Both the position numbers and the translations under genes were made by a program. A DNA stretch of 64,000 nucleotides from Pseudorhodoferax soli (GTDB lineage: Bacteria > Pseudomonadota > Gammaproteobacteria > Burkholderiales > Burkholderiaceae_C): NCBI RefSeq assembly GCF_003337555.1, contig NZ_QPJK01000003.1, positions 116,115-180,114 on the forward strand. Direction: 5' to 3'. Under the pieces are notes generated by a model, which ran no database searches, was not told the origin of the DNA, and saw only the letters and a program-made list of their open reading frames with translations. How positions within the stretch are numbered: the first letter of the stretch is position 1; each line of letters opens with the position of its first letter. Below are positions 2 through 45,830 of the stretch, one piece after another.

Positions 2-193
2 GTGAGTTCCGGTGCCGACGTGCGGCGCTGGGCGCCGCTGGACGCTGCGCGCCACCGCGTGCTCGCCCAGGACATGCCGTGCCGGCCCTGCGCCCACGCC
101 GTCTGCCCCTACGACCACGGCTGCGCCACGGCCATCAGCGTGCCGCAAGTTCTGGCGGCATTGCCGGCGGATCTGCGAGCGCCGGCGCCCTGA
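2..193 (+). CDS. C-terminal end of a glycosyltransferase family 9 (heptosyltransferase-like) protein, 5' truncated by the window edge
   Basis: Only the last 63 residues are present. They carry the cysteine-rich tail CRPCAHAVCPYDHGC followed by a hydrophobic stretch with V..VLAAL. This resembles the C-terminus of ADP-heptose:LPS heptosyltransferases, which transfer heptose to the lipopolysaccharide inner core on the cytoplasmic face of the inner membrane. The true start lies outside the window. The gene runs into the 3' end of gmhB on the other strand with a 59-base convergent overlap. The next gene being a heptose-bisphosphate phosphatase supports an LPS-core role. The call rests on the tail motif and context only. 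Confidence 0.6.
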   Translation: MSSGADVRRWAPLDAARHRVLAQDMPCRPCAHAVCPYDHGCATAISVPQVLAALPADLRAPAP

Positions 194-746
194 GGATGTG
201 CCGCGCCGCCTCGTGCAGGTTGGCGGCACGCGCATGGGGCGTGCGCCAGGGGCCGCTCTTCCACACGGTCTCGTTGCCCACGTCCAGCAGCACGCTGCGG
301 CAGCCGGCGCGCTGGCCGGCCTCCACGTCGTCCAGGATGTCGCCCACCATCCAGCTGCGCGCCAGGTCCAGGCCATGCGCACGCGCGGCCTGGTGGAACA
401 GCCCTGGCGCCGGCTTGCGGCAGCTGCAGGCCGGCTCGGCCGCCGTGCCCGGCGCGTGCGGGCAGGCGTAGAAGCCCGTCAGCGGCACGCCTGCGCGCGC
501 AAGCCGGCGTGCCAGCGCCTGGCGCAGGCGCAGCAGCGCGTTGAGGTCGAAGTAGCCCAGCGCCACGCCGGGCTGGTTGGTCACGACCACGATGCGAAAG
601 CCCTGCGCATGCAACAGCCGCAGCCCGTCCAGCGCGCCGGCGGTGAAGCACATGCGCGCCGGGTCCACGTTGTAGGGCTGGTCTTCGACCAGGGTGCCGT
701 CCTTGTCCACGAACACTGCGGGGTCGCCGCCATCGTTCAGCGCCAT
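135..746 (-). CDS. gmhB: D-glycero-D-manno-heptose 1,7-bisphosphate 7-phosphatase, HAD-IIIA family
   Basis: A 203-residue cytoplasmic HAD phosphatase that would dephosphorylate heptose 1,7-bisphosphate during ADP-heptose synthesis for LPS. Motif I is VFVDKDGTL with the nucleophile Asp14 and acid/base Asp16. Motif II is VVTNQPG. A zinc loop CPHAPG...CSCRKP lies in the middle, and motif IV is VGDILDD. Length is normal for GmhB (about 180-200). The ATG at 746 is preceded by an AGGAGG seven bases upstream, which decides the start. The 3' end overlaps the heptosyltransferase-like gene. The related histidinol-phosphate phosphatase domain is an alternative, but the zinc loop and the neighbour favour GmhB. 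Confidence 0.85.
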   Translation of the reverse strand: MALNDGGDPAVFVDKDGTLVEDQPYNVDPARMCFTAGALDGLRLLHAQGFRIVVVTNQPGVALGYFDLNALLRLRQALARRLARAGVPLTGFYACPHAPGTAAEPACSCRKPAPGLFHQAARAHGLDLARSWMVGDILDDVEAGQRAGCRSVLLDVGNETVWKSGPWRTPHARAANLHEAARHILRAPALADPPAMPPELAAR

Positions 747-902
747 GGGGCCTCCTGCCGGGGGCGCGCCATGGTGGCGGCCACGGCCGGAGGGGACGTG
801 GCCGCGCCGTGGGCACGCACGCACAGGAGAAGGGAAGGGGTGGCCGCGGGGGGCGCAGTGGCTTGCATGGGCAGTCGGAATGTCGAGGTCGTGCCACTCC
901 GG

Positions 903-916
903 GCAATCCGCGTGCC
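903..916 (-). promoter_or_regulatory. Sigma-54-type promoter element facing gmhB
   Basis: On the minus strand the sequence reads GGCACGCGGATTGC, a match to the -24 GG / -12 GC sigma-54 consensus with the required 10-base spacing. A transcript would begin near 891, about 145 bases before the gmhB start. It is identical over 14 bases to the element at 5313-5326. The long leader makes its link to gmhB less certain than for the other sites. Confidence 0.5.
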
Positions 917-1099
917 CGGGACCGGCGCCGCTTGCCAGTCGCGGTAGGGCTTGCCGCAAATCTTGCGTTGCCGCGGCCGGCGCCAGGGTGGCGTTGACAC
1001 GGCGGCGCAGGGCATCGGCGCGGTGCGGCGGGCTGCTGACGGGGGGCGCCGCCCACGGCGGGGCCCGTATGTTTCCAGGTGTCACGGGGCAACCGTTTC

Positions 1100-1113
1100 G
1101 GCACGTCGCTTGC
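1100..1113 (+). promoter_or_regulatory. Sigma-54-type promoter of the rpoN gene
   Basis: The sequence GGCACGTCGCTTGC has -24 GGCAC and -12 TTGC with 10 bases between GG and GC. Transcription would begin near 1125, leaving a leader of about 26 bases before the ATG at 1151. A sigma-54 gene read from a sigma-54 promoter implies positive autoregulation. Confidence 0.6.
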
Positions 1114-1150
1114 GATGCGCTGCACTCTTCGACCACAGACCCGCGCCAAC

Positions 1151-2545
1151 ATGCTTCAACCTGCTCTCCAGCACCAGGCCCAGCCGCAGTTCTCGGTGCG
1201 CCAGCAGCGCGCCGTGCAGCTGCTGCAGATGCCCAACCTCGAATTCGCCGCCAGCATCGATGCCTGCCTGGCCAGCAACCCCTTCCTCGAGATCGACGAA
1301 CAGGCGCCGCCGCCCGCCGCGGCCGCGATGGACGAGGCGCAGGCCGTGTCCGCCGCCGGCCAGCCCTGGGGCGCCACGCTGGGCGCGCGCCAGCGCCCGC
1401 GCGGCGGCGACGGCGATTTCGACGCACTGGCCTTCCTGCCCGCGCCGGTCAGCCTGCGCGACCACCTGCACGCGCAGCTGCGCCTGCTGCGGCTGGACGA
1501 CCGCTCCTTCATGCTGGCCAGCCTGCTCTGCGAGGCGCTGGACGAAGACGGCTACCTGCGCCTGGACCCCACCGAGGTGGCGGCGCTGGGCGAACTGCAG
1601 CCCGCCGCAGGCGTCGCCGAACTCGACGCGGCCCTGGCCTGCGTGCAGACGCTGGACCCGCCCGGCGTGGGCGCGCGCAGCCTGGTCGAGTGCCTGCAGC
1701 TGCAGCTGGCCAGCCACCCCGACGCGCAGGAGCGCCAGCTCTGCACGCGGCTGCTGACCGAGGCCGAACCGGCGCTGCGCACCGGCGACGTGGCGCGCTG
1801 CGCCCGCCTGCTGGGCTGCAGCGCCGCCACGGTGCAGCGGCTGCTGCGGCTGCTGCGCGGGCTGGACCCGCATCCGGGCTGGCGCCACGGCGGCGAGCCC
1901 GTGCGCTACGTGGTGCCCGACGTGCTGGCCCGGCGCACGCGCACGGGCTGGACGGCCCAGCTCAACGAGGCCGTGGTGCCGCGCGTGCAGCTGCACCGCG
2001 CCTATGCCGAGCTCTACCGCCAGCACCGCGGCACGGCCGCGCCCGCGCTGGCCGGCCAGCTGCAGGAGGCGCGGTGGACGCTGCGCAACGTGGAGCAGCG
2101 CTTCTCCACCATCCTCGCCGTGGCGCAGTCCATCGTGCGCCGGCAGCAGCGCTTCCTGGACCACGGGCCCCTGGCCATGCAGCCGCTGGTGCTGCGCCAG
2201 GTGGCCGAGGAACTGGGCATGCACGAGTCCACGGTCTCGCGCGTCACGCACCAGAAGTTCATCGCCACGCCCTCGGGCACCTTCGAGCTGGGCTACTTCT
2301 TCTCGCGCGGCCTGTCCGTGGTCGGCGGCGGGCAATGCTCGCCCACGGCCGTGCGCGAACTCGTGCACGAGATCATCGTGCGCGAGAAGGGCGCGCCGCT
2401 GTCGGACGTGGCCATTGCGCTGCAACTGGCGCGCCGCGGCATCCGCGTGGCACGCCGCACCGTCACCAAATACCGCCAGCAGCTGGGCCTGGGAACGGCC
2501 GGCCTGCGGGCAGCAAGGGGCATGGCCCAGGGAGCATCCACATGA
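1151..2545 (+). CDS. rpoN: RNA polymerase sigma-54 factor (RpoN family, probably a second copy)
   Basis: A 464-residue sigma-54 factor that directs core RNA polymerase to -24/-12 promoters and needs an AAA+ activator to open them. Region I is the glutamine/leucine-rich N-terminus (residues 1-50, QFSVRQQRAVQLLQMPNLEF...SNPFLEID). The core-binding region follows. The helix-turn-helix is at about 340-365 (LRQVAEELGMHESTVSRVT), and the RpoN box ARRTVTKYRQ lies near the C-terminus (about 433-443), as in all active members. The ATG at 1151 is chosen because family homology begins exactly there, although no strong ribosome site precedes it. The usual rpoN neighbours (lptB upstream, hpf/ptsN downstream) are absent, so this is probably an accessory copy. 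The stop overlaps the next start (ATGA). Confidence 0.93.
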   Translation: MLQPALQHQAQPQFSVRQQRAVQLLQMPNLEFAASIDACLASNPFLEIDEQAPPPAAAAMDEAQAVSAAGQPWGATLGARQRPRGGDGDFDALAFLPAPVSLRDHLHAQLRLLRLDDRSFMLASLLCEALDEDGYLRLDPTEVAALGELQPAAGVAELDAALACVQTLDPPGVGARSLVECLQLQLASHPDAQERQLCTRLLTEAEPALRTGDVARCARLLGCSAATVQRLLRLLRGLDPHPGWRHGGEPVRYVVPDVLARRTRTGWTAQLNEAVVPRVQLHRAYAELYRQHRGTAAPALAGQLQEARWTLRNVEQRFSTILAVAQSIVRRQQRFLDHGPLAMQPLVLRQVAEELGMHESTVSRVTHQKFIATPSGTFELGYFFSRGLSVVGGGQCSPTAVRELVHEIIVREKGAPLSDVAIALQLARRGIRVARRTVTKYRQQLGLGTAGLRAARGMAQGAST

Positions 2546-2820
2546 ACAGCACGTCCCCCAAGGAGAGCGGCGCGGGCACGCGCCCGGTGACCGACGGCAC
2601 GGTGGCCAACATCGGCGCCGGCGGCGCGCTGGAGACGGGCCGCGCCGCCACGGGCGAGCCCAACAACGGCCCGGCCCATCCCGAGCGCATGCAGGACAAG
2701 GCGGCCGACGCCGCGGGCGAGCGCCAGGACGACTCCGTGCCGCTCGGCCTGCACAGCGACAAGACGCCGCAGGCCAACACCGAGCCGCCACCCGCGCACG
2801 ACGACGACGCCGACCGCTGA
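2542..2820 (+). CDS. Small hydrophilic protein of unknown function co-transcribed with rpoN
   Basis: A 92-residue polar protein, rich in Gly, Ala, Asp, Glu and Pro, with no membrane segment, signal peptide or cysteine. It begins at an ATG overlapping the rpoN stop codon by four bases, so it is almost certainly translated from the same mRNA. The sequence (TVANIGAGGALETGRAATGEPNNGPAHPERM) suggests a disordered, stress-type protein. No family is recognised. Translational coupling to rpoN is the only clue to its role. Confidence 0.7.
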   Translation: MNSTSPKESGAGTRPVTDGTVANIGAGGALETGRAATGEPNNGPAHPERMQDKAADAAGERQDDSVPLGLHSDKTPQANTEPPPAHDDDADR

Positions 2821-2831
2821 GCCCCGGCCCG

Positions 2832-2845
2832 GGACCGCGGTTTGC
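2832..2845 (+). promoter_or_regulatory. Sigma-54-type promoter element ahead of the cytochrome oxidase subunit I gene
   Basis: GGACCGCGGTTTGC has GG and GC separated by 10 bases and ends in the shared CGCGGTTTGCC block also seen at 7948. The -24 half (GGACC) is weaker than GGCAC. Transcription would start near 2857, some 28 bases before the ATG at 2885. Confidence 0.45.
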
Positions 2846-2884
2846 CAGCGCTGTGGCGTCCCATTCGCACAGGAGCGCCTCTCG

Positions 2885-4495
2885 ATGAGCACCCCACCGC
2901 TGGCCCATCCCGTCCCCGAGCCGCACGCCCTGCCGCATGGCTGGGCGCGCTGGCTGGGCGCCACCAACCACAAGGACATCGGCACGCTGTACCTGCTGTT
3001 CAGCTTCGCGATGCTGATGGTGGGCGGTGTCTTTGCGCTGGCCCTCAGGGCCGAACTGCTGCAGCCCGGCCTGCAGCTGCTCAACCCGGACCTGTACAAC
3101 CAGCTCGTCACCATGCACGGCCTGGTGATGGTGTTCGGCGCCATCATGCCGGCCTTCGTGGGCTTTGCGAACTGGATGCTGCCGCTGCAGATCGGCGCCT
3201 CCGACATGGCCTTCGCGCGCATGAACAACTTCAGCTTCTGGCTGCTGGCGGTGGCCGGCGTGGCGCTGCTGGCCTCGTTCGGCGTGACGGGCGGCGCGCC
3301 CGCCGCGGGCTGGACGCTGTACGCGCCGCTGTCGCTGCAGATGGGTCCCGGCATGGACATGGCCATCTTCTCGATCCACCTGATGGGCGCCAGCTCCATC
3401 ATGGGCGCCATCAACATCATCGTGACGCTGCTCAACATGCGCGCGCCCGGCATGACGCTGCTGAAGATGCCGATGTTCTGCTGGGCCTGGCTGGTCACGG
3501 CCTACCTGCTGATCGCGGTGATGCCGGTGCTGGCCGGCGCGATCACCATGACGCTGACGGACCGGCATTTCGGCACCAGCTTCTTCAACCCGGCCGGCGG
3601 TGGCGACCCGGTGCTCTACCAGCATGTGTTCTGGTTCTTCGGCCACCCGGAGGTCTACATCATGATCCTGCCGGCCTTCGGCATCGTGAGCCATGTGATC
3701 CCGGCCTTCGCGCGCAAGAAGCTGTTCGGCTACCTGTCCATGGTCTATGCGCTGGCGGCGATCGCCATCGTCTCCTTCGTGGTCTGGGCCCACCACATGT
3801 TCACCACCGGCATGCCGGTCACGGGCCAGCTGTTCTTCATGTACGCCACGCTGCTGGTGGCCGTGCCCACGGCGGTCAAGGTGTTCAACTGGGTCGCCAC
3901 CATGTGGCAGGGCTCCATGAGCTTCGAGACCCCCATGCTGTTCGCCGTCGGCTTCGTTTTCGTGTTCACGGTGGGCGGGCTGTCCGGCGTGATGCTGGCG
4001 CTGGCGCCGCTGGACCTGCAATACCACGACACCTACTTCGTCGTCGCGCACTTCCACTACGTGCTGGTGGCCGGCTCGCTGTTCGGCCTGTTCGCGGGCT
4101 ACTACTACTGGGTGCCCAAGTGGACCGGCGTGATGACGTCGGAGCGCCGCGGCCGCTGGCACTTCTGGGTCTCCATCGTCTCGCTGAACGTGACCTTCTT
4201 CCCGATGCACTTCCTGGGCCTGGCCGGCATGCCGCGGCGCTATGTGGACTATGCGGCCCAGTTCACCGACATCCATGCGCTGACCAGCGTGGGCGCCTTC
4301 GTGTTCGGGTTGGCCCAGGTCTACTTCCTCTTCTGGGTGCTGCTGCCCGCGCTGCGCAAGCGCGGCGCACCGGCGCCGCAGCGGCCCTGGGAAGGCGCCG
4401 AAGGCCTGGAATGGGAGGTGCCGTCGCCCGCGCCGTTCCACACCTTCGAGCAGCCGCCCAAGCTGGACGCCACAGCCACGCGCGTGGTGGCCTGA
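2885..4495 (+). CDS. ctaD: Cytochrome c oxidase subunit I, aa3 type (CtaD homologue)
   Basis: A 536-residue integral membrane haem-copper oxidase subunit I with about 12 membrane helices, which reduces O2 and pumps protons. It starts with the family signature WLGATNHKDIGTLYL. The active-site helix has GHPEVY (about residues 253-258: CuB His, the proton-channel Glu and the cross-linked Tyr). The CuB histidine pair is in VWAHHMF (about 303-304), the K-channel lysine in VPTAVKVFNW, and the haem ligands in VVAHFHYVLVAGS. Unlike a normal cta operon, no subunit II, III or assembly gene is nearby; only a DUF2244 gene follows. This is therefore an orphan, probably a paralogue able to assemble with subunits encoded elsewhere. 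A sigma-54-like promoter precedes it. Confidence 0.92.
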   Translation: MSTPPLAHPVPEPHALPHGWARWLGATNHKDIGTLYLLFSFAMLMVGGVFALALRAELLQPGLQLLNPDLYNQLVTMHGLVMVFGAIMPAFVGFANWMLPLQIGASDMAFARMNNFSFWLLAVAGVALLASFGVTGGAPAAGWTLYAPLSLQMGPGMDMAIFSIHLMGASSIMGAINIIVTLLNMRAPGMTLLKMPMFCWAWLVTAYLLIAVMPVLAGAITMTLTDRHFGTSFFNPAGGGDPVLYQHVFWFFGHPEVYIMILPAFGIVSHVIPAFARKKLFGYLSMVYALAAIAIVSFVVWAHHMFTTGMPVTGQLFFMYATLLVAVPTAVKVFNWVATMWQGSMSFETPMLFAVGFVFVFTVGGLSGVMLALAPLDLQYHDTYFVVAHFHYVLVAGSLFGLFAGYYYWVPKWTGVMTSERRGRWHFWVSIVSLNVTFFPMHFLGLAGMPRRYVDYAAQFTDIHALTSVGAFVFGLAQVYFLFWVLLPALRKRGAPAPQRPWEGAEGLEWEVPSPAPFHTFEQPPKLDATATRVVA

Positions 4496-4500
4496 GCGCC

Positions 4501-4959
4501 ATGGCGCAGCAGGCCGGGGCGCCGCTGCACAGCTGGCGGCTGCTGCGCCCGCATGCATTGCGGCCGTGCCAGTTCTTCGGCGCGCTTGGGGCCATCGCCG
4601 CCTGGCTGCTGCTGGTGGCCGGCGTGGCGCTGGGCCTGGGCTACTGGCCGGTGGCGCTGTGCTGCGCGCTGGCGCTGGCGGCGGCCGTGGCGGGCTTCGT
4701 GCATGCGGCCCGCCACGCGCTGGACGGCGAGCAGGTCCACCTGCATGCCGACGGCAGCCTGGAGGTCTGGAGCATGCGGGGCAGCGCCCGGCAGTGCCAG
4801 CGCCTGCCGGTGGCCTGGCTGCGCGTGGAAGCCGACCACGCCGGCCTGCGGCTCAGCAGCGGCGGCCGGCGCGTGTGCGTGGCCACGCAGCTCGGTGCCG
4901 TGGCGCGTGCGCGTTTCGCCGCCGAACTGCGCGCGGCCTTGCGCATGCCGCGGTACTAG
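4501..4959 (+). CDS. DUF2244 membrane protein
   Basis: A 152-residue inner-membrane protein with two adjacent helices (about residues 33-75), followed by a soluble C-terminal domain with repeated short beta-type segments. This is the DUF2244 layout. In many proteobacteria DUF2244 genes lie in cytochrome c oxidase clusters. Here it follows the oxidase subunit I gene by only five bases, so it is co-transcribed and presumably serves that oxidase. Molecular function is not established. Its stop overlaps the 3' end of the convergent gene by four bases. Confidence 0.75.
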   Translation: MAQQAGAPLHSWRLLRPHALRPCQFFGALGAIAAWLLLVAGVALGLGYWPVALCCALALAAAVAGFVHAARHALDGEQVHLHADGSLEVWSMRGSARQCQRLPVAWLRVEADHAGLRLSSGGRRVCVATQLGAVARARFAAELRAALRMPRY

Positions 4960-5285
4960 GGCGCGCCGGCCCCGGCGCCGCCGTGTCGGGTGGCGGGCGG
5001 CTGGGGCGGCGTGGCCGTTGCGAACAGGCTGCCGTTGACAGCCCCGCCGGGCTCACCGGGTTCCGGCGGCCGCTCGGCCGCCAGCAGCGCGCGGCCGCGC
5101 GGCGTGATCGCCAGCACGCGCGCCACGCGGTGCGGCGGCGCCGGGGCGTCGCCCGCCGTGCGCAGAAACAGCGCTGCCACCAGGTCTGCCGCGCGCAGCA
5201 ACTGGGCTTCGTCCATCTCTGCGCGCTGCGTGAGTTGCAGCGGCAAGGTGGCGGTCTCGATCTTCTTCAGCAGGGACAGGGTCAT
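4956..5285 (-). CDS. Small soluble protein of unknown function, winged-helix-like
   Basis: A 109-residue protein beginning MTLSLLKKIETATLPLQL. The segment LLRAADLV...RVARVLAITPRGRALLAAE looks like a small winged-helix or MarR-like end (helices, then an ITxxGRxLL wing). A related protein occurs at 55660-55944: both share an L(K/R)(K/R)IE.A..P opening and a LLRA..LV...V.....GRA.LA end, which suggests a small paralogous family. The ATG at 5285 has AGGAGG nine bases upstream. A sigma-54-type element lies 28 bases upstream. The tail after residue 75 is Pro/Gly-rich and probably disordered. Confidence 0.7.
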   Translation of the reverse strand: MTLSLLKKIETATLPLQLTQRAEMDEAQLLRAADLVAALFLRTAGDAPAPPHRVARVLAITPRGRALLAAERPPEPGEPGGAVNGSLFATATPPQPPATRHGGAGAGAP

Positions 5286-5312: not shown

Positions 5313-5326
5313 GCAATCCGCGTGCC
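5313..5326 (-). promoter_or_regulatory. Sigma-54-type promoter of the 4956-5285 gene
   Basis: On the minus strand GGCACGCGGATTGC, identical to the element at 903-916. The -12 dinucleotide lies 28 bases before the ATG at 5285. The predicted start near 5301 leaves a 16-base leader that just accommodates the AGGAGG site. Confidence 0.6.
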
Positions 5327-5414: not shown

Positions 5415-5669
5415 TCAGGCGCCGGGCCGGCGCAGCATCAGCACGATGCCCCACAGCGCGGCCAGGCCGACCAGCACGTAGACCGCGCGCGACAGCAGGC
5501 TCATGCTGCCGAACAGCGTGGCCACGAGGTCGACCTGCAGCAGCCCCACGAGCCCCCAGTTCAGCCCCCCCACCACGAGCAGCACCAGGGCGATGTAGTC
5601 GAGCAGGTTGAAGGGCCGGCGGGCCGGGGCGTGCAGGGGTTGGGAAGCGGTGGTCTGACCGATGGCCAT
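5415..5669 (-). CDS. DUF378 small membrane protein
   Basis: An 84-residue protein with two hydrophobic helices. The first holds the family signature ALVLLVVGGLNWGLVGL and is followed by DLVATLFGSMSLLSRAVYVLVGLAALWGI, matching DUF378 (YuzA type). Function is unknown; it is an inner-membrane protein. The ATG at 5669 is preceded by AAGGAG at good spacing. It has its own sigma-54-type promoter at 5716-5729. The C-terminus is short and basic (LRRPGA). Confidence 0.85.
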   Translation of the reverse strand: MAIGQTTASQPLHAPARRPFNLLDYIALVLLVVGGLNWGLVGLLQVDLVATLFGSMSLLSRAVYVLVGLAALWGIVLMLRRPGA

Positions 5670-5715: not shown

Positions 5716-5729
5716 GCAATCGGCATGCC
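5716..5729 (-). promoter_or_regulatory. Sigma-54-type promoter of the DUF378 gene
   Basis: Minus strand GGCATGCCGATTGC, with GG-N10-GC spacing and the shared CGATTGCC end. The predicted start is near 5704, about 35 bases before the ATG. Confidence 0.55.
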
Positions 5730-7947: not shown

Positions 7948-7961
7948 GGAACGCGGTTTGC
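7948..7961 (+). promoter_or_regulatory. Sigma-54-type promoter of the aldehyde oxidoreductase operon
   Basis: GGAACGCGGTTTGC with exact GG-N10-GC spacing. The predicted start near 7973 leaves a leader of about 19 bases that contains the AAGGAG ribosome site before the ATG at 7992. Only the -24 third base (A for C) departs from the best sites in the window. Confidence 0.6.
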
Positions 7962-7991
7962 CGCCCAGGCGCCATGCACAAGGAGCCCCCC

Positions 7992-8537
7992 ATGCATTCC
8001 GACGACCAAGCCTCGGCGCCGGCCGGCCAGCCTCTGGCCCTGCGCGTGAACGGCCAGCCGCGCAGCCTGGTGCTGCAACCCTGGGTCAGCCTGCTGGACA
8101 TGCTGCGCGACCGGCTGCAGCTGACCGGCACCAAGAAGGGCTGCGACCACGGCCAGTGCGGTGCCTGCACCGTGCTCGTGGACGGCCGGCGCGAGCTGAG
8201 CTGCCTGGCACTGGCGCGCGCGGGCTGCGACATCGTGACGGTGGAGGGCCTGGCGGACGGGGAGCGCCTGTCGCCCTTGCAGCAGGCCTTCATCCGCCAC
8301 GACGCGCTGCAGTGCGGCTACTGCACGCCGGGCCAGCTGTGCTCGGCCGAGGGCCTGCTGCGCGAAGGCCAGGCGCGCACGCTGGACGAGGTGCGGGAAC
8401 TCATGAGCGGCAACCTGTGCCGCTGCGGCGCCTACGTGCAGATCGCCCAGGCCGTGGCCGAGGTGGCGTTCGGCCCGGGCCCGCATGCCAGCGAGCGCGC
8501 CGACCGGCCCATCGTGACGGGAACGGTGCCGGGATGA
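7992..8537 (+). CDS. paoA: Aldehyde oxidoreductase, 2Fe-2S subunit (PaoA/YagT type)
   Basis: A 181-residue iron-sulfur subunit of a molybdenum hydroxylase of the xanthine dehydrogenase family; it passes electrons from the Mo site to FAD. The plant-type cluster is bound by GCDHGQCGACTV plus a later Cys (about residues 52-80). The second cluster is bound by CGYCTPGQ and GNLCRCGAY (about 115-150). The E. coli counterpart PaoA carries a Tat signal; none is present here, so this enzyme is probably cytoplasmic. The ATG at 7992 has AAGGAG seven bases upstream. It overlaps the next gene by ATGA. Confidence 0.88.
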   Translation: MHSDDQASAPAGQPLALRVNGQPRSLVLQPWVSLLDMLRDRLQLTGTKKGCDHGQCGACTVLVDGRRELSCLALARAGCDIVTVEGLADGERLSPLQQAFIRHDALQCGYCTPGQLCSAEGLLREGQARTLDEVRELMSGNLCRCGAYVQIAQAVAEVAFGPGPHASERADRPIVTGTVPG

Positions 8538-11985: not shown

Positions 11986-12246
11986 CTAGTCCGGCGGTGC
12001 CGGCCGGCTCGGCAGTTCGCCGGCGTGGGCCCGGATGCGGTCGACGCAGCCCGCGAGGTCGGGGATCAGGGCGAGCGAATCCAGTGCCAGCAGCAGCACG
12101 TCGCGGCTGAGCCGGCAGCTGTCGTGCATCCTGAGGAGCTTGTCCAGCAGGTCGTCGGCCAGCGCGTGCATCTCGTCCGATGCCTCGGCCGAGGCCAGTG
12201 CGTGCCGGCACTGCTCCAACTGCTCGCGGGTCACGTGTCGGTGCAT
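11986..12246 (-). CDS. Small hypothetical helical protein
   Basis: An 86-residue, alpha-helical, cytoplasmic protein (MHRHVTREQLEQCRHALASAEASDEMHALADDLLDKLLRMHDSCRLSRDVLLLALDSL). No signal or membrane segment is seen, and two cysteines lie far apart. The ATG at 12246 fits where the amphipathic helices begin. No family is recognised. A sigma-54-type element lies about 300 bases upstream, with a strong inverted repeat in between. Confidence 0.6.
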   Translation of the reverse strand: MHRHVTREQLEQCRHALASAEASDEMHALADDLLDKLLRMHDSCRLSRDVLLLALDSLALIPDLAGCVDRIRAHAGELPSRPAPPD

Positions 12247-12550: not shown

Positions 12551-12564
12551 GCAAGCCGCGTGCC
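12551..12564 (-). promoter_or_regulatory. Sigma-54-type promoter element downstream of the DUF2243 gene
   Basis: Minus strand GGCACGCGGCTTGC with exact GG-N10-GC spacing. It lies just after the DUF2243 stop codon and points toward 12246. Predicted transcription start is near 12539. Confidence 0.55.
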
Positions 12565-14533: not shown

Positions 14534-15295
14534 TCAGGGTGCCGGGGGGCTGCGCCGCAGCAGGTAGGTGTCCATGATCCAGCCGTGCGCCACGCGCGCG
14601 CTGTCGCGCAGGCGGGCGATGGGCCCGGCCACATCGGCCAGCGGGCCGTGCCGCAGCAGCTGCTGCGGCAGCCCGAGGTAGGCACCCCACCAGATCGACA
14701 CGCCGGCGGTCTCCAGGCCGCGGAAGGCGCAGCGCCCGTCCAGCAGCACCGCCACGGTGTCGGCACCGGCGGGCCAACCGCCCGTCTCCAGCCGCCGCCC
14801 GGTGGTGACCGTGACGGGGCTGTTGATGGCGTTGAGCGGGATGGCGTGCGCGGCCGTCAACGCCTGCAGCGCCGTGATGCCGGGCACGACGCTGGTGCGC
14901 AGTGCGGTCCGGCGTGCCAGCCGTTCGGCGATGCGCAGCGTGCTGTCGTACAGCGAGGGGTCGCCCCAAACCAGCAGGGCCAGCCGCCCGCCGCCGGGCA
15001 GGTGCACGGCGATGGCCGCCAGCCAGGCCTCGGCGATCGCGTCGTGCCAGCGTTCGACGGCACCGGCGTAGTCGCTCTCTGCACCCTCGCGCACCGGCAT
15101 GTCGAAGAAGGCGATGCGCGTGCCCGTGGTGACGACGGCCGAGCAGATCGCCAGCCGGACGTCCGCCAGGTCGGCCTTGCCTTCGCCCTTGCGCGGGATG
15201 AGGATCAGGTCGGCCGCGTTGAGCGCGCGCTCGCCCTGCCGCGTGATGTGGTCGGGATGGCCGGTGCCGATGCCGACCAGCGCCAGCTCGATCAT
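14534..15295 (-). CDS. cobF: Precorrin-6A synthase (deacetylating)
   Basis: A 253-residue S-adenosylmethionine-dependent methyltransferase of the tetrapyrrole class. In the aerobic cobalamin pathway it methylates C1 of precorrin-5 and releases the acetyl group, giving precorrin-6A. The N-terminus is [17 protein letters not shown]. The substrate loop is [12 protein letters not shown], and [21 protein letters not shown] follows. The ATG at 15295 overlaps the cobM stop (ATGA). It is the last gene of the minus-strand cob block. CobF is found only in the oxygen-dependent route. Confidence 0.92.
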
Positions 15296-16080
15296 GCGTC
15301 GCCGCCCGCGGGAAAGCGCGGCGTGGCGCCCAGCGGGCGGTAGCGGCGGTCGTAGTCGGCGGCGTAGAGCCGGCTCGTGCCGAAGTCCTCGGCGCCGAGG
15401 TTGGCGCCGACCAGGATCAGCGCGGTGCGGTCCATGGTCTGGCCGACCTCGGCCTCGATGCTGGCCAGCGTGCCGCGCACCACGCGCTCGTCGGGCCAGC
15501 TGGCGCGCCAGACCACGGCCACCGGGCAGTCGGGCCCGTAGAACGGCAGCAGTTCGGCCACCACGCCCGCCAGCACATGGATGGACAGGTGGATCGCCAG
15601 CGTCGCGCCGGTCGCCGCGAAGCGGGCCAGGGCCTCGCCCTCGGGCATGGACGAGGCGCGGCCCGAGGTGCGCGTCAGCACCACCGACTGCGCCCGCCCG
15701 GGCAGGGTCAGTTCCTGCGCCAGCGTGGCGGCCGCCGCGGCGAAGGACGGCACGCCCGGCGTGACCGTGAACGGGATGCCGAGCGCGCGCAGGCGGCGCA
15801 GCTGCTCGCCCATGGCCGACCAGACGGACACATCGCCCGAGTGCAGGCGCGCCACGTCCTGGCCGGCGGCGTGCGCGGCGCGCAGGGTCTCGACGATCTC
15901 GTCGAGCGACAGCGGCGCGGTGTTGACCACGCGCGCGCCCGGCGGGCAGAAGGCCAGCACGCCCTCGGGCACGAGCGAGCCTGCGTAGAGGCAGACGGGG
16001 CAGGCGGCGATCAGGTCGCGGCCGCGCAGGGTCAGCAGGTCGGGGGCGCCGGGGCCGGCGCCGATGAAGTGGACGGTCAT
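15292..16080 (-). CDS. cobM: Precorrin-4 C11-methyltransferase
   Basis: A 262-residue tetrapyrrole methyltransferase. Key segments are [18 protein letters not shown] at the N-terminus, [28 protein letters not shown], and [14 protein letters not shown], which is typical of CobM/CbiF. It converts precorrin-4 to precorrin-5. Its start overlaps the cobE stop and its stop overlaps the cobF start, both by four bases. Confidence 0.93.
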
Positions 16081-16475
16081 GGTTCGCAGGGGTCGGTGGG
16101 ATGGGGCCGGGCCGCGGCCAAGGCCGCCGTGGCCTGCCGGTCGCTGGAGACGGCGCGTGTTGCGAGCAGCCGCGCGCCGGGCCCGGCGGCCGCCAGCGCG
16201 GCGGCCTCGGCCAGGCTGCGCCCGCCGTAGCGCGCGGGCGCGAAGGCACTGGGTGTGGCGGGCTGCGCGGCCAGCAGGGGCAGGGGCACGCCGACCAGCG
16301 GCAGGCGCAGCTCCGCGGCGAACTGCGCCAGGGCGGCACTGTCCATCTTGTCTTGCGCCGTGGCCACGGCGCGCAGCACGGGCGGGGCCGGCAGCGCGGC
16401 GCAGGCGGCGCGCAGCGCATCGTGCAGCGACGCGGCGCCGGCGCCGGAATGGAAGCCCACGCCCAGCACCGTCAC
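16077..16475 (-). CDS. cobE: Cobalamin biosynthesis protein CobE (CbiG C-terminal-like)
   Basis: A 132-residue protein with the start [13 protein letters not shown] and the conserved segments [28 protein letters not shown] and [20 protein letters not shown]. These match the CobE/CbiG C-terminal domain. Its exact step in the aerobic pathway is not settled. The start is a GTG that overlaps the cobL stop as GTGA, and the first family residues begin there. It overlaps cobM downstream. Confidence 0.85.
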
Positions 16476-17662
16476 AGCTGCACGCTCCACTGCACGATGG
16501 GGCGAGACGGCGCCCAGCTGCGCAGGCGCCCGAGTGGCGCGGCCTGGGCGATGTCGATGCGCAGCAGCGTGCCGCCATGGCTGGCGTGCAGCTGCAGCAG
16601 CAGGGCTTCGGTCTCCAGCGCGACGGCATTGGCCACCAGCCGCGCCACGGGGCTGGCGGCGCGCAGCGCCTCGAACAGCGCCAGGTCGAAGCCGCCGCCG
16701 GCGAAAATGGCCTGCGCCGGCGCCAGTCCCGCCAGGGCCTCGGGCGCGCGGCCGGTGACGACCTGCAGTCGCTCGGCCACGCCGAAGCGCCCGGCATTGG
16801 CCTGGATGTTGGCCGCGCGGGCCGCATGCTGCTCCACGGCGCAGGCACGTCCGCCCGCCAGGCACCACTCGATGGCGACGGAGCCCGCGCCGGCTCCCAC
16901 ATCCCACAGCAGCTCGCCGGGCCGCGGCGCCAGTGCTGCCAGCGTCAGCGCGCGCATGGGCGACTTGGTGATCTGCCCGTCGTGCGCGAACGCCGCATCG
17001 GGCAGGCCGGCGGCGCGCGGCAGGCCCGCCGCGCCTGCCGGCTCCAGCCCCACGGCCACGGGCGTTGCGATGCCGGCCAGGTCCAGGTCCAGGTCCAGGC
17101 CCTGGGCCGTGGTCCGGTGCACGCGCTCGCGCGGGCCGCCCAGGGCCTGCAGCACCCACAGCGTAGAGCTGCCGAAGCCCTGGTCGCACAGCCATTGCGC
17201 GAAGCTGCCGACGGCCTCGGCCGACGCCAGCAGGCACAGCAGCCGCGCGCCGGGATGCAGGTGCACGCGCGCCACGGCGAACGGCCTGGCATGCAGGCCC
17301 AGGCAGGCGACCCCCTCCAGCGGCCAGCCCAGCCGCGCGGCCGCCAGCGAGAAGGTCGAGGGCGCCGGGTGCGCCGTCCACTCGTCTGGCGCCAGATGCG
17401 CGGCCAGCGCGCCGCCGGCGCCGAACCAGAACGGATCGCCCGAGGCCAGCACGGCGACGCGGCGGCCGCGCAGCGCCAGCACCGGCGCGAGGTCGAAGGG
17501 CCGCGGCCAGGCCTGGCCGCGCGCGCCCGCCTGGGCCAGCGCGAGGTGGCGCGGGCCGCCGAAGACGAACGCGGCCTGCTCCAGTGCCGCGCGGCCGGCA
17601 CCGGACAATCCGGCCAACCCGTCTTCTCCGATGCCGATGATGTCCAGCCAGCGCTCAGCCAC
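16472..17662 (-). CDS. cobL: Precorrin-6Y C5,15-methyltransferase (decarboxylating), CbiE-CbiT fusion
   Basis: A 396-residue two-domain enzyme that methylates C5 and C15 and removes the acetate at C12, giving precorrin-8X. The N-terminal CbiE half has [14 protein letters not shown] and [12 protein letters not shown]. The C-terminal CbiT half has the methyltransferase motif [19 protein letters not shown] run of LDLDLDL in the linker comes from a short tandem DNA repeat. Start is the GTG at 17662, with AGGAGG seven bases upstream. Its 5' end overlaps the oppositely oriented cobK, so its promoter must lie inside cobK. Confidence 0.92.
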
Positions 17663-18413
17663 GCCCCGCCTCCTGCTCCTGGGCGGCACCACCGAAGCCC
17701 GCCAGCTCGCCGAAGCGCTGGCCACGGCCGGCGTGGACGCCGTCTACTCCTATGCCGGCCGCACCCAGGCGCCGCTGGCCCAGCCGCTGCCCACGCGCGT
17801 GGGCGGCTTCGGCGGCGTGGCCGGCCTGCGCGCGTGGCTGCTGGCGCAGCGCATCACGCAGGTGGTGGATGCGACCCACCCCTTCGCGGCCCGCATGAGC
17901 GAGAACGCGGTGCAGGCCTGCGCCGCGCTCGGCGTGCCCCTGGTCGCGCTGGAGCGGCCGGCCTGGGTGGCGCAGTCCGGCGACGACTGGCGTGAGGTGC
18001 CGGACATGGCCGCGGCCGTGGCGGCCCTGCCGGCCGCGCCCAGCTGCGTGTTCCTGGCCATCGGCCGGCAGGCCCTGGACGCCTTCGCCCAGGCCCCGCA
18101 ACACCACTACCTGCTGCGGCTGGTGGACGCACCGCTGCAGCCGCTGTCCCTGCCGCAGGCCACGCTGGTGCTCGACCGCGGCCCGTTCACGGCCGAGGGC
18201 GACCGGCAACTGATGCTGGCGCACGGCAGCACGCATGTGGTGGCCAAGAACGCGGGCGGCAGCGGCGCCCGCGCCAAGCTCGACGCCGCCCGCAGCCTGG
18301 GCTTGCCGGTCATCATGGTTCAGCGGCCGCGGCTGGCGCCGCGGACCAGCCTCGGCTCGGTGGCCGAGGTGATGGCCTGGCTGGCGGCTCACAAGGCCGC
18401 CCTCGGCGTGTAG
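17640..18413 (+). CDS. cobK: Precorrin-6A reductase
   Basis: A 257-residue NADPH-dependent reductase of precorrin-6A. The N-terminal nucleotide loop is LLLGGTTEARQLAEAL; further segments include VVDATHPFAARMSENAVQAC and LVLDRGPFTAEGDRQLM. It is the only cob gene here on the plus strand. Its head overlaps the start of cobL by 23 bases and its tail overlaps the end of cobJ by 25 bases, so it has no intergenic space of its own. Alternative in-frame ATGs at 17631 and 17637 exist, and no ribosome site distinguishes them. Confidence 0.9.
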   Translation: MSSQRSATPRLLLLGGTTEARQLAEALATAGVDAVYSYAGRTQAPLAQPLPTRVGGFGGVAGLRAWLLAQRITQVVDATHPFAARMSENAVQACAALGVPLVALERPAWVAQSGDDWREVPDMAAAVAALPAAPSCVFLAIGRQALDAFAQAPQHHYLLRLVDAPLQPLSLPQATLVLDRGPFTAEGDRQLMLAHGSTHVVAKNAGGSGARAKLDAARSLGLPVIMVQRPRLAPRTSLGSVAEVMAWLAAHKAALGV

Positions 18414-19126
18414 ACGAAGCGGCCGACGCGCCGGGTCGCGGCATTGCCCACCAGCACCACGGTGCGCATGTCGGCCATCTCGGGCCTGGCCTCGGCCAGC
18501 GTCACGGTGCGCAGCCGCTCCTCGGGCGTGCCGACGGCGCGCGCGAAGACGAGCAGGCGTTGGGGTTCGCAGGCCTCGCGCAGCAGGGCGAGGATGCGCG
18601 CGAAGCCATCGGGCCGGCTGGCCGAGCGCGGGTTGTAGAAGGCCATGGCGAAGTCGGCACCGGCGGCGGCGCGCACGCGCGCCTCGATGGTGGCGGCCGG
18701 CTTGAGGTTGTCGCTCAGGTTGATCGCGCAGAAGTCGTGCCCCAGCGGCGCGCCGGCCCGGGCGGCCGCCGCCAGCATGGCGGTGATGCCGGGCAGCACG
18801 CGGATGTCCAGCTGTTGCCACGCGGGCGCCGCCTCCAGCGCCTCGAACACCGCGGACGCCATCGCGAAGACGCCGGGGTCGCCCGACGACACCACCACCA
18901 CGCGCCGCCCGGCCGCGGCCATGGCCAGCGCGGCCTGGGCGCGCGCGATCTCCTGGCGGTTGTCCGACGGGTGCAGGCGCAGCCCTTCGCGCGGCGCGAC
19001 GCGCGCCACATAGGGGATGTAGCCGACCACGTCGGTGGCCTGGTCCAGCGCCTGGGCGACCTCGGGCGTGCGCATGGCCTCGTCGCCCGGCCCCAGGCCC
19101 GCGATGCACAGCCAGCCCGGGCTCAC
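18389..19126 (-). CDS. cobJ: Precorrin-3B C17-methyltransferase
   Basis: A 245-residue tetrapyrrole methyltransferase catalysing ring contraction and C17 methylation to precorrin-4. Segments include IAGLGPGDEAMRTPEV, VVSSGDPGVFAMASAVFEAL and DFCAINLSDNLKPAATIE, ending in DMRTVVLVGNAATRRVG. Start is a GTG that overlaps the cobI stop as GTGA. The 3' end converges with cobK. Confidence 0.92.
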   Translation of the reverse strand: MSPGWLCIAGLGPGDEAMRTPEVAQALDQATDVVGYIPYVARVAPREGLRLHPSDNRQEIARAQAALAMAAAGRRVVVVSSGDPGVFAMASAVFEALEAAPAWQQLDIRVLPGITAMLAAAARAGAPLGHDFCAINLSDNLKPAATIEARVRAAAGADFAMAFYNPRSASRPDGFARILALLREACEPQRLLVFARAVGTPEERLRTVTLAEARPEMADMRTVVLVGNAATRRVGRFVYTPRAAL

Positions 19127-19854
19127 TCCAGCACCTCGGGGCGGCGCCCCTGGCCATGCACCAGCACGATGGCGAAGTAGGGGCAGTCCGCGCCGTCCAC
19201 CTCGGCCAGCGGCACGATGCGTTCGCCGGGCATGGTGCCGCGCTCCACCAGCCAGGCGGCGTCGAGCCGGCCGGCGGCCTGCAGCGCACGCCGCACGCGC
19301 GGCAGGTTGCGGCCGGTCTTCATGACCACGAGCGCATCGGCCGAGCGCATGTGGCGCTCCAGTTCCGCATCGGGCAGCGTGCCCATCAGCACGACGAGCA
19401 CGTCGTCGCCCCAGGTGATGGGCAGCTGGGTGGCAGACCAGCAGCCCACCATGCCCGGCATGCCCGGGATCACCTCCACCTGGGCGCGGCCCTGCAGCCG
19501 CGTGTGCAGGTGCATGAAGGAGCCGAAGAAGAAGGGGTCGCCCTCGCACAGCACCACCACATCCTGCTGCTGTGCCAGCGCCGCCAGGCGCGCGGCCCAG
19601 TCGTCGTAGAAGGCGGCGAGGCAGGCCTTGTATTCGGCGCTGCCGAAGTGCAGCTCGGTCGTGACCGGGTACTCCATCGCGTACTCCTGCACCTCGGGCG
19701 CGAGCATGCCGTCGACGATGCGCCGGGCCTGGCCGGGCCGGCCGCGCTTGCGGAAGTAGGCGACATGGCGGGCCGTGCGGATGGCGCGGTCGGCGCGCAC
19801 GCTCATGAGTTCGGGGTCGCCAGGGCCCAGCCCGGCGCAGAGGATGCGGCCCAT
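19123..19854 (-). CDS. cobI: Precorrin-2 C20-methyltransferase
   Basis: A 243-residue methyltransferase converting precorrin-2 to precorrin-3A. The N-terminus is ILCAGLGPGDPELMSVRADR. The active-site loop is LCEGDPFFFGSFMHLHTRL, followed by VIPGMPGMVGCWSATQLPI. The ATG shares its A with the cobH stop (TGATG), so the genes are tightly coupled. Confidence 0.92.
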   Translation of the reverse strand: MGRILCAGLGPGDPELMSVRADRAIRTARHVAYFRKRGRPGQARRIVDGMLAPEVQEYAMEYPVTTELHFGSAEYKACLAAFYDDWAARLAALAQQQDVVVLCEGDPFFFGSFMHLHTRLQGRAQVEVIPGMPGMVGCWSATQLPITWGDDVLVVLMGTLPDAELERHMRSADALVVMKTGRNLPRVRRALQAAGRLDAAWLVERGTMPGERIVPLAEVDGADCPYFAIVLVHGQGRRPEVLE

Positions 19855-20498
19855 CAGATTTCCTGGCGGCTGGCCAATGCGTTGACGGCGGCCACCGTGA
19901 TGGCCGAGCCGCCCAGCCGCCCGTCCACGACGATGGCCGGCGCGGGCAGCGCCTCGATCAGGGCGGCCTTGGATTCGGCCGCGCCGACGAAGCCCACCGG
20001 GCAGCCGACGATGGCCGCGGGCCGCGGACACAGCGGGTCCTGCAGCAGGTTGAGCAGGTGGAACAGGGCGGTCGGCGCGTTGCCGATGGCCACCACGGCA
20101 CCGGCCAGCAGCGGGCGCCACAGTTCCACGGCGGCGGCGCTGCGCGTCGTCCCGAGGCGGGCCGCGAGGGCGGGCACCTCCGGTTCGTGCAGCGTGCAGA
20201 CGACGCGGTTGTCGGCCGGCAGCCGCGCGCGCGTGATGCCTTCGCTGACCATGCGCGCATCGCACAGGATGGGCGCGCCGGCCTCGAGCGCGGCGCGCGC
20301 GGCCTCGGCCGCGCCGGCGGAAAAGCGGATGTGCGGCGCCAGCTCGACCATGCCGGCGGCATGGACCATGCGCACGGCCACCATCTCCTCGGCGGGAGAG
20401 AAGCGAGCGAGCGCGGCTTCGGCGCGGATGATGGCGAACGAGGCGCGGTAGATCGCCGCGCCGTCGGTCTCATAGCGGTGGGGTGTCGGTGGCGTCAT
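19854..20498 (-). CDS. cobH: Precorrin-8X methylmutase
   Basis: A 214-residue mutase that moves the C11 methyl to C12, forming hydrogenobyrinate. The catalytic histidine is in VRMVHAAGMVELAPHIRFS (about residue 45). The C-terminal part has AAIVGCPVGFVGAAESKAAL and VDGRLGGSAITVAAVNALA. The start lies inside the 3' end of cobG (29-base overlap). Confidence 0.93.
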   Translation of the reverse strand: MTPPTPHRYETDGAAIYRASFAIIRAEAALARFSPAEEMVAVRMVHAAGMVELAPHIRFSAGAAEAARAALEAGAPILCDARMVSEGITRARLPADNRVVCTLHEPEVPALAARLGTTRSAAAVELWRPLLAGAVVAIGNAPTALFHLLNLLQDPLCPRPAAIVGCPVGFVGAAESKAALIEALPAPAIVVDGRLGGSAITVAAVNALASRQEI

Positions 20499-32938: not shown

Positions 32939-32952
32939 GCAAACGGCGTGCC
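32939..32952 (-). promoter_or_regulatory. Sigma-54-type promoter of the 32662-32870 gene
   Basis: Minus strand GGCACGCCGTTTGC with exact GG-N10-GC spacing. Transcription would start near 32927, 57 bases before the ATG. Four phased 10-bp repeats lie directly upstream. Confidence 0.62.
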
Positions 32953-37105: not shown

Positions 37106-37119
37106 GGAACGCGGATTGC
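37106..37119 (+). promoter_or_regulatory. Sigma-54-type promoter element before the zinc-finger protein gene
   Basis: GGAACGCGGATTGC with exact GG-N10-GC spacing. Transcription would begin almost at the ATG at 37131, so either the mRNA is leaderless or the true start codon is further downstream (an in-frame ATG lies at 37188). Confidence 0.55.
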
Positions 37120-37341: not shown

Positions 37342-37572
37342 ATGGCCGCCAAGCGCCCCTGGCCCTTCCCGACGGCCGAACACCATCCGCCGCCCGACCC
37401 GGCCGCGCCGCTGCCGCAGCAGCCGAGCGAGGACGCGCTGGACCACGGCATCCAGGAGAGCTTTCCCGCCAGCGATCCGGTGTCGGTGACGGTGACCACG
37501 GTGCCCGAGCAGGTGCCCGGTGCCACGCCGCCGCCCGCACCGGACAGCGAACCCGGCGCGGACAAGGGCTGA
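37342..37572 (+). CDS. Small hypothetical protein with ESFPASDPVSVT motif
   Basis: A 76-residue proline-rich, acidic protein. The centre reads EDALDHGIQESFPASDPVSVT, a short conserved motif seen in many uncharacterised proteobacterial stress-associated proteins. GGAGG lies eight bases before the ATG at 37342, inside the end of the previous gene. Likely disordered outside the motif. Function unknown. Confidence 0.75.
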   Translation: MAAKRPWPFPTAEHHPPPDPAAPLPQQPSEDALDHGIQESFPASDPVSVTVTTVPEQVPGATPPPAPDSEPGADKG

Positions 37573-39386: not shown

Positions 39387-39400
39387 GCAATCGGTGTGCC
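39387..39400 (-). promoter_or_regulatory. Sigma-54-type promoter of alcohol dehydrogenase copy 1
   Basis: Minus strand GGCACACCGATTGC with exact spacing. The predicted start is near 39375. It is separated by only seven bases from an oppositely oriented element of the same type. Confidence 0.62.
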
Positions 39401-39407
39401 GGCGCGT

Positions 39408-39421
39408 GGAACGCCGATTGC
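39408..39421 (+). promoter_or_regulatory. Sigma-54-type promoter of the lipoprotein gene
   Basis: GGAACGCCGATTGC with exact spacing, predicted start near 39433, leader of about 27 bases containing the CAGGAG ribosome site of the gene at 39460. Together with 39387-39400 it makes a back-to-back promoter pair. Confidence 0.62.
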
Positions 39422-45390: not shown

Positions 45391-45830
45391 TGAGGACGAC
45401 CGGCAAGTCCGTCCTTTCGCCTAAGTCATGACGTTCACAGGGCAATGATGCCTGCCTCGTCCTTTTCAATCACTGCACGCGGTGCTTGAACCCGCGATGC
45501 AGAGCCGCTCTTTTTGCCGCAATCTTTACCCCATGCGTTCGCATCCAACCTCGTCACACGGGCAGCAGGGTTCAAAGGTCCTCATCAGCGATGCATCAAG
45601 CAGAGGGTCAAAGCAAGAGCGTCGCTGCCATCGTTGAGGACGCTCATCGCGATCTATTCGATGCAGTTCCCCGGACTTCTTTGCTGCAGACACCCATGGA
45701 ACATTGGGTTGCACTCCAAAGAGCCAGCCGCTGCTCCAAGCTGATTTGCCCGAGACCGCCTCACTCGGCATGTCAATTGCCGACCTCCCAAAGTCTCACT
45801 TTCAGCGGACGGGGGCTCCGTCGGCACCGT

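Follow-up and report, generated by a model that had tools for sequence, protein, structure and literature searches.

A second sigma-54 gene of Pseudorhodoferax soli and its co-inherited activator, a probable regulatory module recurring in Burkholderiales

What might a bacterium with an ordinary sigma-54 gene do with a second one? The question is raised by a stretch of 64,000 nucleotides (72% G+C; the window) from the 8.16 Mb genome of Pseudorhodoferax soli, which carries a sigma-54 gene, here called rpoN2, that the original prediction read as encoding an accessory, self-activating factor with its own sigma-54-type promoter and a coupled partner protein. Sequence comparison establishes two rpoN genes in this genome, clustered and conserved -24/-12 promoter elements, and an orthologous activator inherited together with rpoN2. 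It is likely that RpoN2 and this linked NtrC-type activator form a sigma-54 module that recurs in Burkholderiales and acts on -24/-12 promoters, including that of rpoN2. The observation behind the original prediction proved correct, its interpretation correct in part. The real find, in our view, is what appears to be a sigma-54 and activator inherited together as a module, surrounded by similar promoters ahead of envelope and stress genes.

Two genes in the genome encode a sigma-54 DNA-binding domain. The rpoN2 product has all three sigma-54 Pfam domains above cut-off (activator-interacting domain (AID), PF00309, 29.9 bits; core-binding domain (CBD), PF04963, 152.2; DNA-binding domain (DBD), PF04552, 172.9), passes NCBIfam NF009118 (PRK12469) with 429.8 bits against a cut-off of 396 over 7-453, and contains the RpoN box, as ARRTVTKYR. 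By eye, its activator-contact region departs visibly from those of the other aligned RpoNs. The other rpoN, on contig C12, is 43% identical to RpoN2 and adjoins genes for an ABC transporter with an LptB signature and an LptA-domain protein, and is therefore taken as the ordinary rpoN (RpoN1). The search for a second rpoN with lpt-type neighbours that had been proposed thus found one, which refutes the idea of a single rpoN in this genome, and the usual neighbours are indeed missing at 1151-2545, the lptA/lptB-type genes adjoining the C12 copy instead. Across a genus set of six genomes the ordinary copy is present in all six and rpoN2 in three, at 90-91% identity, which agrees with its reading as accessory; the sister genomes that share it are P. 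aquiterrae KCTC 23314 (G001) and a genome deposited as 'Variovorax boronicumulans' DE0202 (G002). As a separate observation on ordinary rpoN genes, an outward-pointing -24/-12 element lies about 1.5 kb upstream of the gene in Comamonadaceae, before the lpt genes (G000:C12:147631, which is L322; L104 8505, L117 1405 and L119 8482).

The element predicted for rpoN2, GGCACGTCGCTTGC at 1100-1113, is an exact match and lies 38 bases 5' of the ATG at 1151. Aligned among the three genomes, the region upstream of rpoN2 shows four identical runs amid diverged sequence: the minus-strand element at 903-916, AGGGCTTGCCGCAAATCTTGCG (946-967), GTTTCCAGGTGTCAC (1071-1085) and the rpoN2 element itself. In P. 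aquiterrae an SDR-like gene follows the divergent element that corresponds to 903-916. A scan of 780-3000 gave no match to a sigma-70 consensus promoter, a weak test in such DNA.

Could such elements be chance matches in G+C-rich sequence? At 72% G+C, one-mismatch sites are indeed common, with 27 in the window against 15.5 +/- 4.1 in shuffles, of which 0 of 100 reached 27. Exact matches to GGCACG-N4-TTGC number 61 in the genome, compared with 22 for the reversed control, and 5 fall in the window against 0.48 expected from that total (Poisson 1.4e-4). We then compared 204 kb around the window with 119 kb and 140 kb from the sister genomes, with genes called by a codon-usage script, counting the intergenic sites that kept GG and GC and differed from the motif at no more than one position. 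The three rpoN2 islands hold 37 such sites in 11.7 kb of intergenic sequence versus 2 in 38.9 kb outside, although the island borders were drawn post hoc, after the sites were known. By genome (the window's, then the sisters'), these are 18, 10 and 9 sites inside and 1, 1 and 0 outside; two of the 18 (37164 and 40548) look like chance. Motifs with a spacer of 2, 3, 5 or 6, or reversed, gave 0-2 sites per island. Origin by chance was rejected on these shifted-spacer and reversed controls and, given additionally the intergenic placement of the sites and the fact that they are conserved in front of the same genes across three genomes, it seems extremely improbable.

The genes behind these promoters encode glycosyltransferases, CheB, a PRC-barrel protein, DUF378 proteins, a HAD phosphatase, hemerythrins and a Zn-dehydrogenase, and in the sister genomes also a CheB-CheR-PAS-kinase fusion. 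Five pairs of promoters stand back to back, 21-30 bp apart. A preferred base may follow TTGC, with C in 25 of the 37 sites (binomial 1e-4 against an assumed 36%). In this genome the stricter form GGCAYGCNGNTTGCC was counted 19 times, against 0 for the control; the island accounts for 7, and of the remaining 12, 7 fall into three groups on C2, C13 and C14. The sister genomes yield 7 and 6 (controls 0 and 1), and the three rpoN2-free genomes of the genus 3, 1 and 3 (controls 0, 1 and 2). Three of the satellite stretches of this genome (L201-L203) hold alpha-amylase-type, DUF892 and glycosyltransferase genes.

The activator gene (G000:C3:113547-114902) lies 1.2-2.6 kb beyond the left edge of the window. 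It encodes a 451-amino-acid response regulator with sigma-54-activator and Fis-type helix-turn-helix domains and the loop GSFTGA, and its neighbour encodes a 405-amino-acid protein that has a receiver domain and matches HisKA with a score below cut-off. An orthologue at 92% occurs in exactly the two other genus genomes that bear rpoN2, and none was found at E<=1e-90 in the three that lack it (150 of 152-170 candidates scored). Among activators linked to genes of the RpoN2 clade that we define below, the best match in this genome was the rpoN2-adjacent activator in 24 of 24 cases (2 from the genus), and outside the genus identity to it was 46-68%, versus 35-48% for the next hits. Of the 24 linked activators, 20 had their sigma-contact loop read, 16 showing GSFTGA and four GAFTGA, and the other activator loops read in this genome have alanine at the second place in 11 of 13 cases. 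A separate feature of six RpoN2-clade loci (L093, L094, L096, L098, L137 and L198) is a pair of divergent activators of this same family, one of them shorter and apparently without a receiver domain.

A de novo search for the activator's site in 213 upstream regions, swamped by back-to-back promoters and by coding sequence where gene calling was poor, gave TTGC-N-GCAA and GCAA-N3-TTGC as the sensible motifs that stood out. Their combination lies in the invariant block upstream of rpoN2 and recurs upstream of rpoN on a distant plasmid (L217). The complete motif TTGCNGCAANNNTTGC is present in 22 of 321 loci, each belonging to this genome, to one of the two sisters or to L217; when up to two mismatches are allowed, the window has 17 versus 5.6 expected. 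In more distant RpoN2 loci GCAA-N3-TTGC was unenriched, with 11 in 25 loci (456 kb; four from the genus) versus 9 in 25 control loci (487 kb).

To place rpoN2 among its relatives, we drew on 53 rpoN loci from named genomes and further ones from a search of 399 Burkholderiales in which four candidates per genome were scored; these loci are not independent, including three Paracidovorax and many Alcaligenaceae, and one fragment (L135) was left out of all counts. A maximum-likelihood tree built from 64 of the 98 extracted rpoN rows, the other 34 having been dropped, places the 26 rows labelled RpoN2 on one side of a branch with support 100/99; the tree was rooted at its midpoint only, has some long branches and includes no Ralstonia sequence. 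L097 and L101 join the RpoN2 side in a 35-row tree, again with 100/99. The window's rpoN2 groups with this Burkholderiales RpoN2 clade, as defined in this analysis, apart from the remaining rpoNs. The presence of an additional ordinary rpoN was checked in the genus and in the RpoN2 genomes of the 399-genome search only.

Of 27 RpoN2-clade loci, 21 have a sense -24/-12 site in the 320 bp or so upstream, versus 3 of 34 others (Fisher 3e-8), these first controls being mostly Gammaproteobacteria with lpt neighbours unchecked. For this count rpoN starts were located with a motif that did not work in six RpoN2 loci, and 21 is a low count because three loci scored as negative (L091, L195 and L216) do have a site in the sense direction, no more than about 200 bp away. 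The count leaves out L097, L101 and L197; with them it becomes 23 of 30, two having the site and L197 lacking it. Among other Burkholderiales rpoN loci the site was seen in 0 of 6 from the genus, 0 of 20 from the 399-genome search and 1 of 30 from the genomes used for counting rpoNs (1 of 56 overall, with at least one genome, G043, counted twice and ordinary-rpoN identity taken from tree or score). That rpoN2 is an accessory sigma-54 gene with a sigma-54-type promoter is thus well supported, the predicted promoter being borne out by conservation in three genomes, by the island-wide pattern and by other loci of the clade. Among the 34 controls we also observed, in Lysobacterales and relatives, a minus-strand -24/-12 element at -72 to -76 of rpoN in 10 loci (L100, L102, L103, L107, L108, L111, L116, L123, L126 and L130), which might serve autoregulation or be a promoter for divergent transcription.

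With L097 and L101 again left out, a sigma-54 activator is encoded in the flank examined at 18 of 28 RpoN2-clade loci versus 1 of 34 others. Around 26 loci of the clade, with the same two left out, we counted 138 intergenic sites against a spacer-control mean of 14.7, around 32 other rpoNs 27 against 14.7, and in five random stretches 2 against 2, where 'intergenic' means the whole locus for L092, L096, L137, L193, L106, L120, L121, L127 and L134, since the gene caller was unreliable in some loci of lower G+C. Genes near the clade's sites include those for hemerythrin and BON proteins (L191), a trehalose-6-phosphate-synthase-type GT20 protein (L198), a transglycosylase-associated protein (L192), and DUF892 and PRC proteins (L216). 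On plasmid CP099607.1 (Comamonadaceae OTU4NAUVB1) an rpoN has the exact element 51 bp before its start, TTGC-N-GCAA-N3-TTGC just upstream and a gene annotated 'sigma-54 dependent transcriptional regulator' nearby. On the Burkholderia cenocepacia plasmid NZ_CP091014.1, 14 intergenic sites fall in 25 kb around rpoN, a stretch in which no sigma-54 activator was found.

Across the order, the activator orthologue (E<=1e-120; next hits from 1e-108) was found in 37 of 398 other Burkholderiales genomes, with four top candidates scored per genome, so that its absence is less sure than its presence. At least two rpoNs occur in 29 of these 37, in 1 of 9 genomes with a shorter paralogue only and in 0 of 34 without a match at E<=1e-95; overall a second rpoN accompanies the activator in 29 of 37 genomes versus 1 of 43 without it (Fisher 2e-13), the 34 controls being a non-random set from the head of the lists. 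In the 29 genomes the second rpoN and the activator share a contig in 25, lie within 10 kb in 18 and are on different contigs in 4. One further hit concerns the controls: at G043:C3:97034-97486 a 405-amino-acid frame has a weak (37 bits) sigma-54 DNA-binding domain and is perhaps a very divergent sigma-54. Counting it, the controls become 1 of 34 (2 of 43 overall).

These observations suggest a mechanism in which island sensors (a CheB-CheR-PAS-kinase-receiver fusion, a PAS-HisKA-receiver hybrid and the 405-amino-acid receiver protein) presumably feed the activator, which would bind upstream sites such as the candidate TTGC-N-GCAA-N3-TTGC. Once phosphorylated it would, as established sigma-54 biology suggests, open promoters of the form GGCAYGCNGNTTGC, that of rpoN2 among them. 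Started by ordinary RpoN or by basal RpoN2, a loop or cascade would then raise RpoN2 and the surrounding envelope and stress genes. We infer which sigma-54 reads the promoters, as we do the activator's site, its signal and the role in stress.

Several observations weigh against this scheme, beyond the post hoc borders of the island. The candidate activator site is upstream of just 9 of the 37 island promoters, and 10 of the 28 RpoN2-clade loci have no sigma-54 activator within the flank examined. In the window, the Hsp20 pair and the genes for Mn-catalase, USP (universal stress protein), DUF892 and egtB/egtD-like proteins lack any site, exact or with one mismatch, directly upstream. Eight of the 37 genomes (G137, G273, G175, G181, G337, G081, G045 and G164) keep the activator with a single rpoN, and in six of these the activator stretch still holds -24/-12 sites, 23 in total against a control mean of 3.7; therefore RpoN1 can probably serve. 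Finally, rpoN2 of Ralstonia solanacearum needs rpoN1, and showed no phenotype in the virulence, nitrate use and metabolism tested (PMC4371752, PMC4676750). As a side observation, the single rpoN of G181 and of G337 has a minus-strand element at -42.

The eight genomes also bear on a cascade in which ordinary RpoN1 and the linked activator transcribe rpoN2 and RpoN2 adds little at its own promoter, a serious contender to which we give somewhat less than an even chance. The sigma-54 promoter of R. solanacearum rpoN2 lies 63 bp upstream, and in minimal medium the gene is no longer expressed once rpoN1 is mutated (PMC4371752), as a cascade would predict. Such a cascade sits less easily with the tie between the second rpoN and the activator across genomes, and with the finding that RpoN1 and RpoN2 of R. 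solanacearum are not interchangeable (PMC4676750). Because of the dependence on rpoN1 in Ralstonia and the eight genomes that keep the activator with one rpoN, we hold the prediction that RpoN2 reads its own promoter, that is, self-activates, to be about evenly balanced.

The deviant activator-contact region of the window's RpoN2 would fit another role, in which RpoN2 represses by occupying -24/-12 sites without productive activation and so competes with RpoN1, as has been put forward for R. solanacearum (PMC4676750). We consider this unlikely: the activator-interacting Pfam domain still scores above cut-off, an activator orthologue is inherited together with the gene, and an Escherichia coli rpoN mutant is complemented by the RpoN2 of R. 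solanacearum (PMC4676750).

A wider reading, which we hold tentatively and with less than even confidence, is that of an ancient, patchily kept Burkholderiales sigma-54 system for envelope and general-stress protection. In it a paralogous RpoN with its co-inherited two-component activator would feed back on itself through a -24/-12 promoter of rpoN2 and command main-island and satellite promoters before genes for glycosyltransferases, hemerythrins, BON, trehalose-synthesis, ferritin-like and small hydrophilic proteins. A sigma-54 system would then do what sigma-S or an extracytoplasmic function (ECF) general stress response does elsewhere. Second rpoNs of Burkholderiales were already known, without a function; the activator, the promoter form and the compact target list make the question testable. 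The GSFTGA loops and the altered contact region of RpoN2 offer a natural test of how two sigma-54 factors in one cell may stay apart, and the eight activator-bearing single-rpoN genomes a natural test of the activator's use of RpoN1.

Parallels exist in other bacteria. The R. solanacearum rpoN2 is likewise a second betaproteobacterial rpoN with a sigma-54 promoter upstream (PMC4371752, PMC4676750). It differs in that its promoter has been shown to depend on rpoN1, and neither a regulon nor a linked activator is described in the accessible parts of those papers. In Mesorhizobium loti and Rhizobium etli the accessory rpoN2 (prxS-rpoN2) also lies behind a sigma-54 promoter, which reads ATGGCACGGCGCTTGCG in M. 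loti, and its level is raised by an activator that the same symbiosis island encodes; for M. loti the proposal is that NifA2 acts with RpoN1 or with basal RpoN2 to initiate its expression. These, however, are Alphaproteobacteria, the activator is NifA and the function is nitrogen fixation, not envelope or stress (PMC3538637). Dedicated sigma-54 factors with their own activators occur in Cereibacter sphaeroides (RpoN2 with FleQ/FleT, RpoN3 with AprX), with flagellar or xrpA regulons and a specificity that mutants proved there and that is presumed here (PMC11999139). In line with such a dedicated pair, the activator of our module is inherited with its sigma factor, to judge by the 24 of 24 best matches and the 29 of 37 versus 1 of 43 genomes. 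RpoNp of Bradyrhizobium sp. DOA9 is an accessory sigma-54 with a proposed stress role and 22 predicted targets; it is an alphaproteobacterial megaplasmid copy, for which the accessible text describes no linked activator or local promoter cluster (PMC13207237). Aquincola tertiaricarbonis RN12 has four RpoN paralogues, one of which controls floc formation (cited in PMC9012009), but the copy named there is RpoN1, the others being undiscussed in the accessible text. A low-oxygen-activated locus of B. cenocepacia was considered and set aside; an Anr/CRP-type regulator is named there (PMC6127331). Beyond the papers cited, our literature search returned no Burkholderiales rpoN2 stress regulon or linked activator, a weak negative, as it covered few subscription papers.

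There remains the 92-residue protein, whose reading frame overlaps the rpoN2 stop codon (ATGA) in the window's genome and in both sisters, as predicted. The overlap and the roughly 90% identity of the protein across the three genomes would suit a modulator of RpoN2 made by translational coupling, the role originally suggested for it. This we now consider very unlikely. Of 40 relatives, 5 have a match, each of them a member of the genus: homologues (63-65%) are present in G004 and G005, both without rpoN2, second copies (68-72%) lie away from rpoN2 in G001 and G002, and none was found among 34 relatives outside the genus. In five other loci examined a Ku gene is adjacent in two (L213 and L215) and 1.4 kb off in one (L211), and an SDR gene is near in two (one confirmed by Pfam). 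Neither Pfam nor NCBIfam gave the protein a match at E<=0.1, and its composition is that of a disordered hydrophilic protein (12% glycine, grand average of hydropathy (GRAVY) -1.09, isoelectric point (pI) 4.55, no cysteine, phenylalanine, tryptophan or tyrosine). It is probably hydrophilic, hydrophilin-like cargo and not a partner of RpoN. The 92-residue gene is followed by a cytochrome oxidase subunit I gene (2885-4495), beside which no gene for subunit II or III was recognised by eye. The features of the window are collected in Table 1.

Table 1. Coordinates of rpoN2, its upstream elements and related features in the window
Feature	Position	Strand	Basis
HAD-family phosphatase (GmhB-like by reading)	135..746	-	Pfam Hydrolase_like
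-24/-12 element divergent from rpoN2, facing HAD phosphatase gene	903..916	-	exact match; exact site at same place in both sisters
Candidate activator site TTGCCGCAA-N3-TTGC	951..966	+	part of 946-967, 22 bases unchanged across three genomes
Second invariant upstream block GTTTCCAGGTGTCAC	1071..1085	+	identical in three genomes
-24/-12 element of rpoN2, GGCACGTCGCTTGC (GGCACG-N4-TTGC)	1100..1113	+	exact match; conserved in both rpoN2-bearing sisters
rpoN2, second sigma-54 gene, 464 amino acids	1151..2545	+	Pfam AID/CBD/DBD, NF009118, RpoN2 clade
92-amino-acid hydrophilic protein, start overlapping rpoN2 stop	2542..2820	+	composition; homologues elsewhere in genus
-24/-12 element, 28 bp before open reading frame 4956-5285	5313..5326	-	exact match
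-24/-12 element, 47 bp before DUF378 gene 5415-5669	5716..5729	-	1 mismatch
-24/-12 element, 13 bp before 2Fe-2S protein gene 7974-8537	7948..7961	+	1 mismatch
Intergenic -24/-12 element; next called gene 11986-12234, 317 bp off	12551..12564	-	exact match
Intergenic -24/-12 element; next called gene about 0.5 kb off	32939..32952	-	exact match
-24/-12 element, 223 bp before 76-amino-acid gene 37342-37572	37106..37119	+	1 mismatch
-24/-12 element, 81 bp before Zn-dehydrogenase gene 38146-39306; back-to-back with 39408	39387..39400	-	1 mismatch
-24/-12 element facing hemerythrin gene 39815-40399, 394 bp off	39408..39421	+	1 mismatch
Activator-site-like motif upstream of 45767 element	45514..45529	+	1 mismatch
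-24/-12 element, 248 bp before hemerythrin gene 46028-46426	45767..45780	+	1 mismatch

Two other parts of the window deserve mention. Within the region, the gene run at 14534-21606 reads, by eye, like cobalamin biosynthesis, and at 57403-59627 a DinB/FGE-sulfatase protein is encoded next to a histidine methyltransferase, like egtB-egtD of ergothioneine synthesis.

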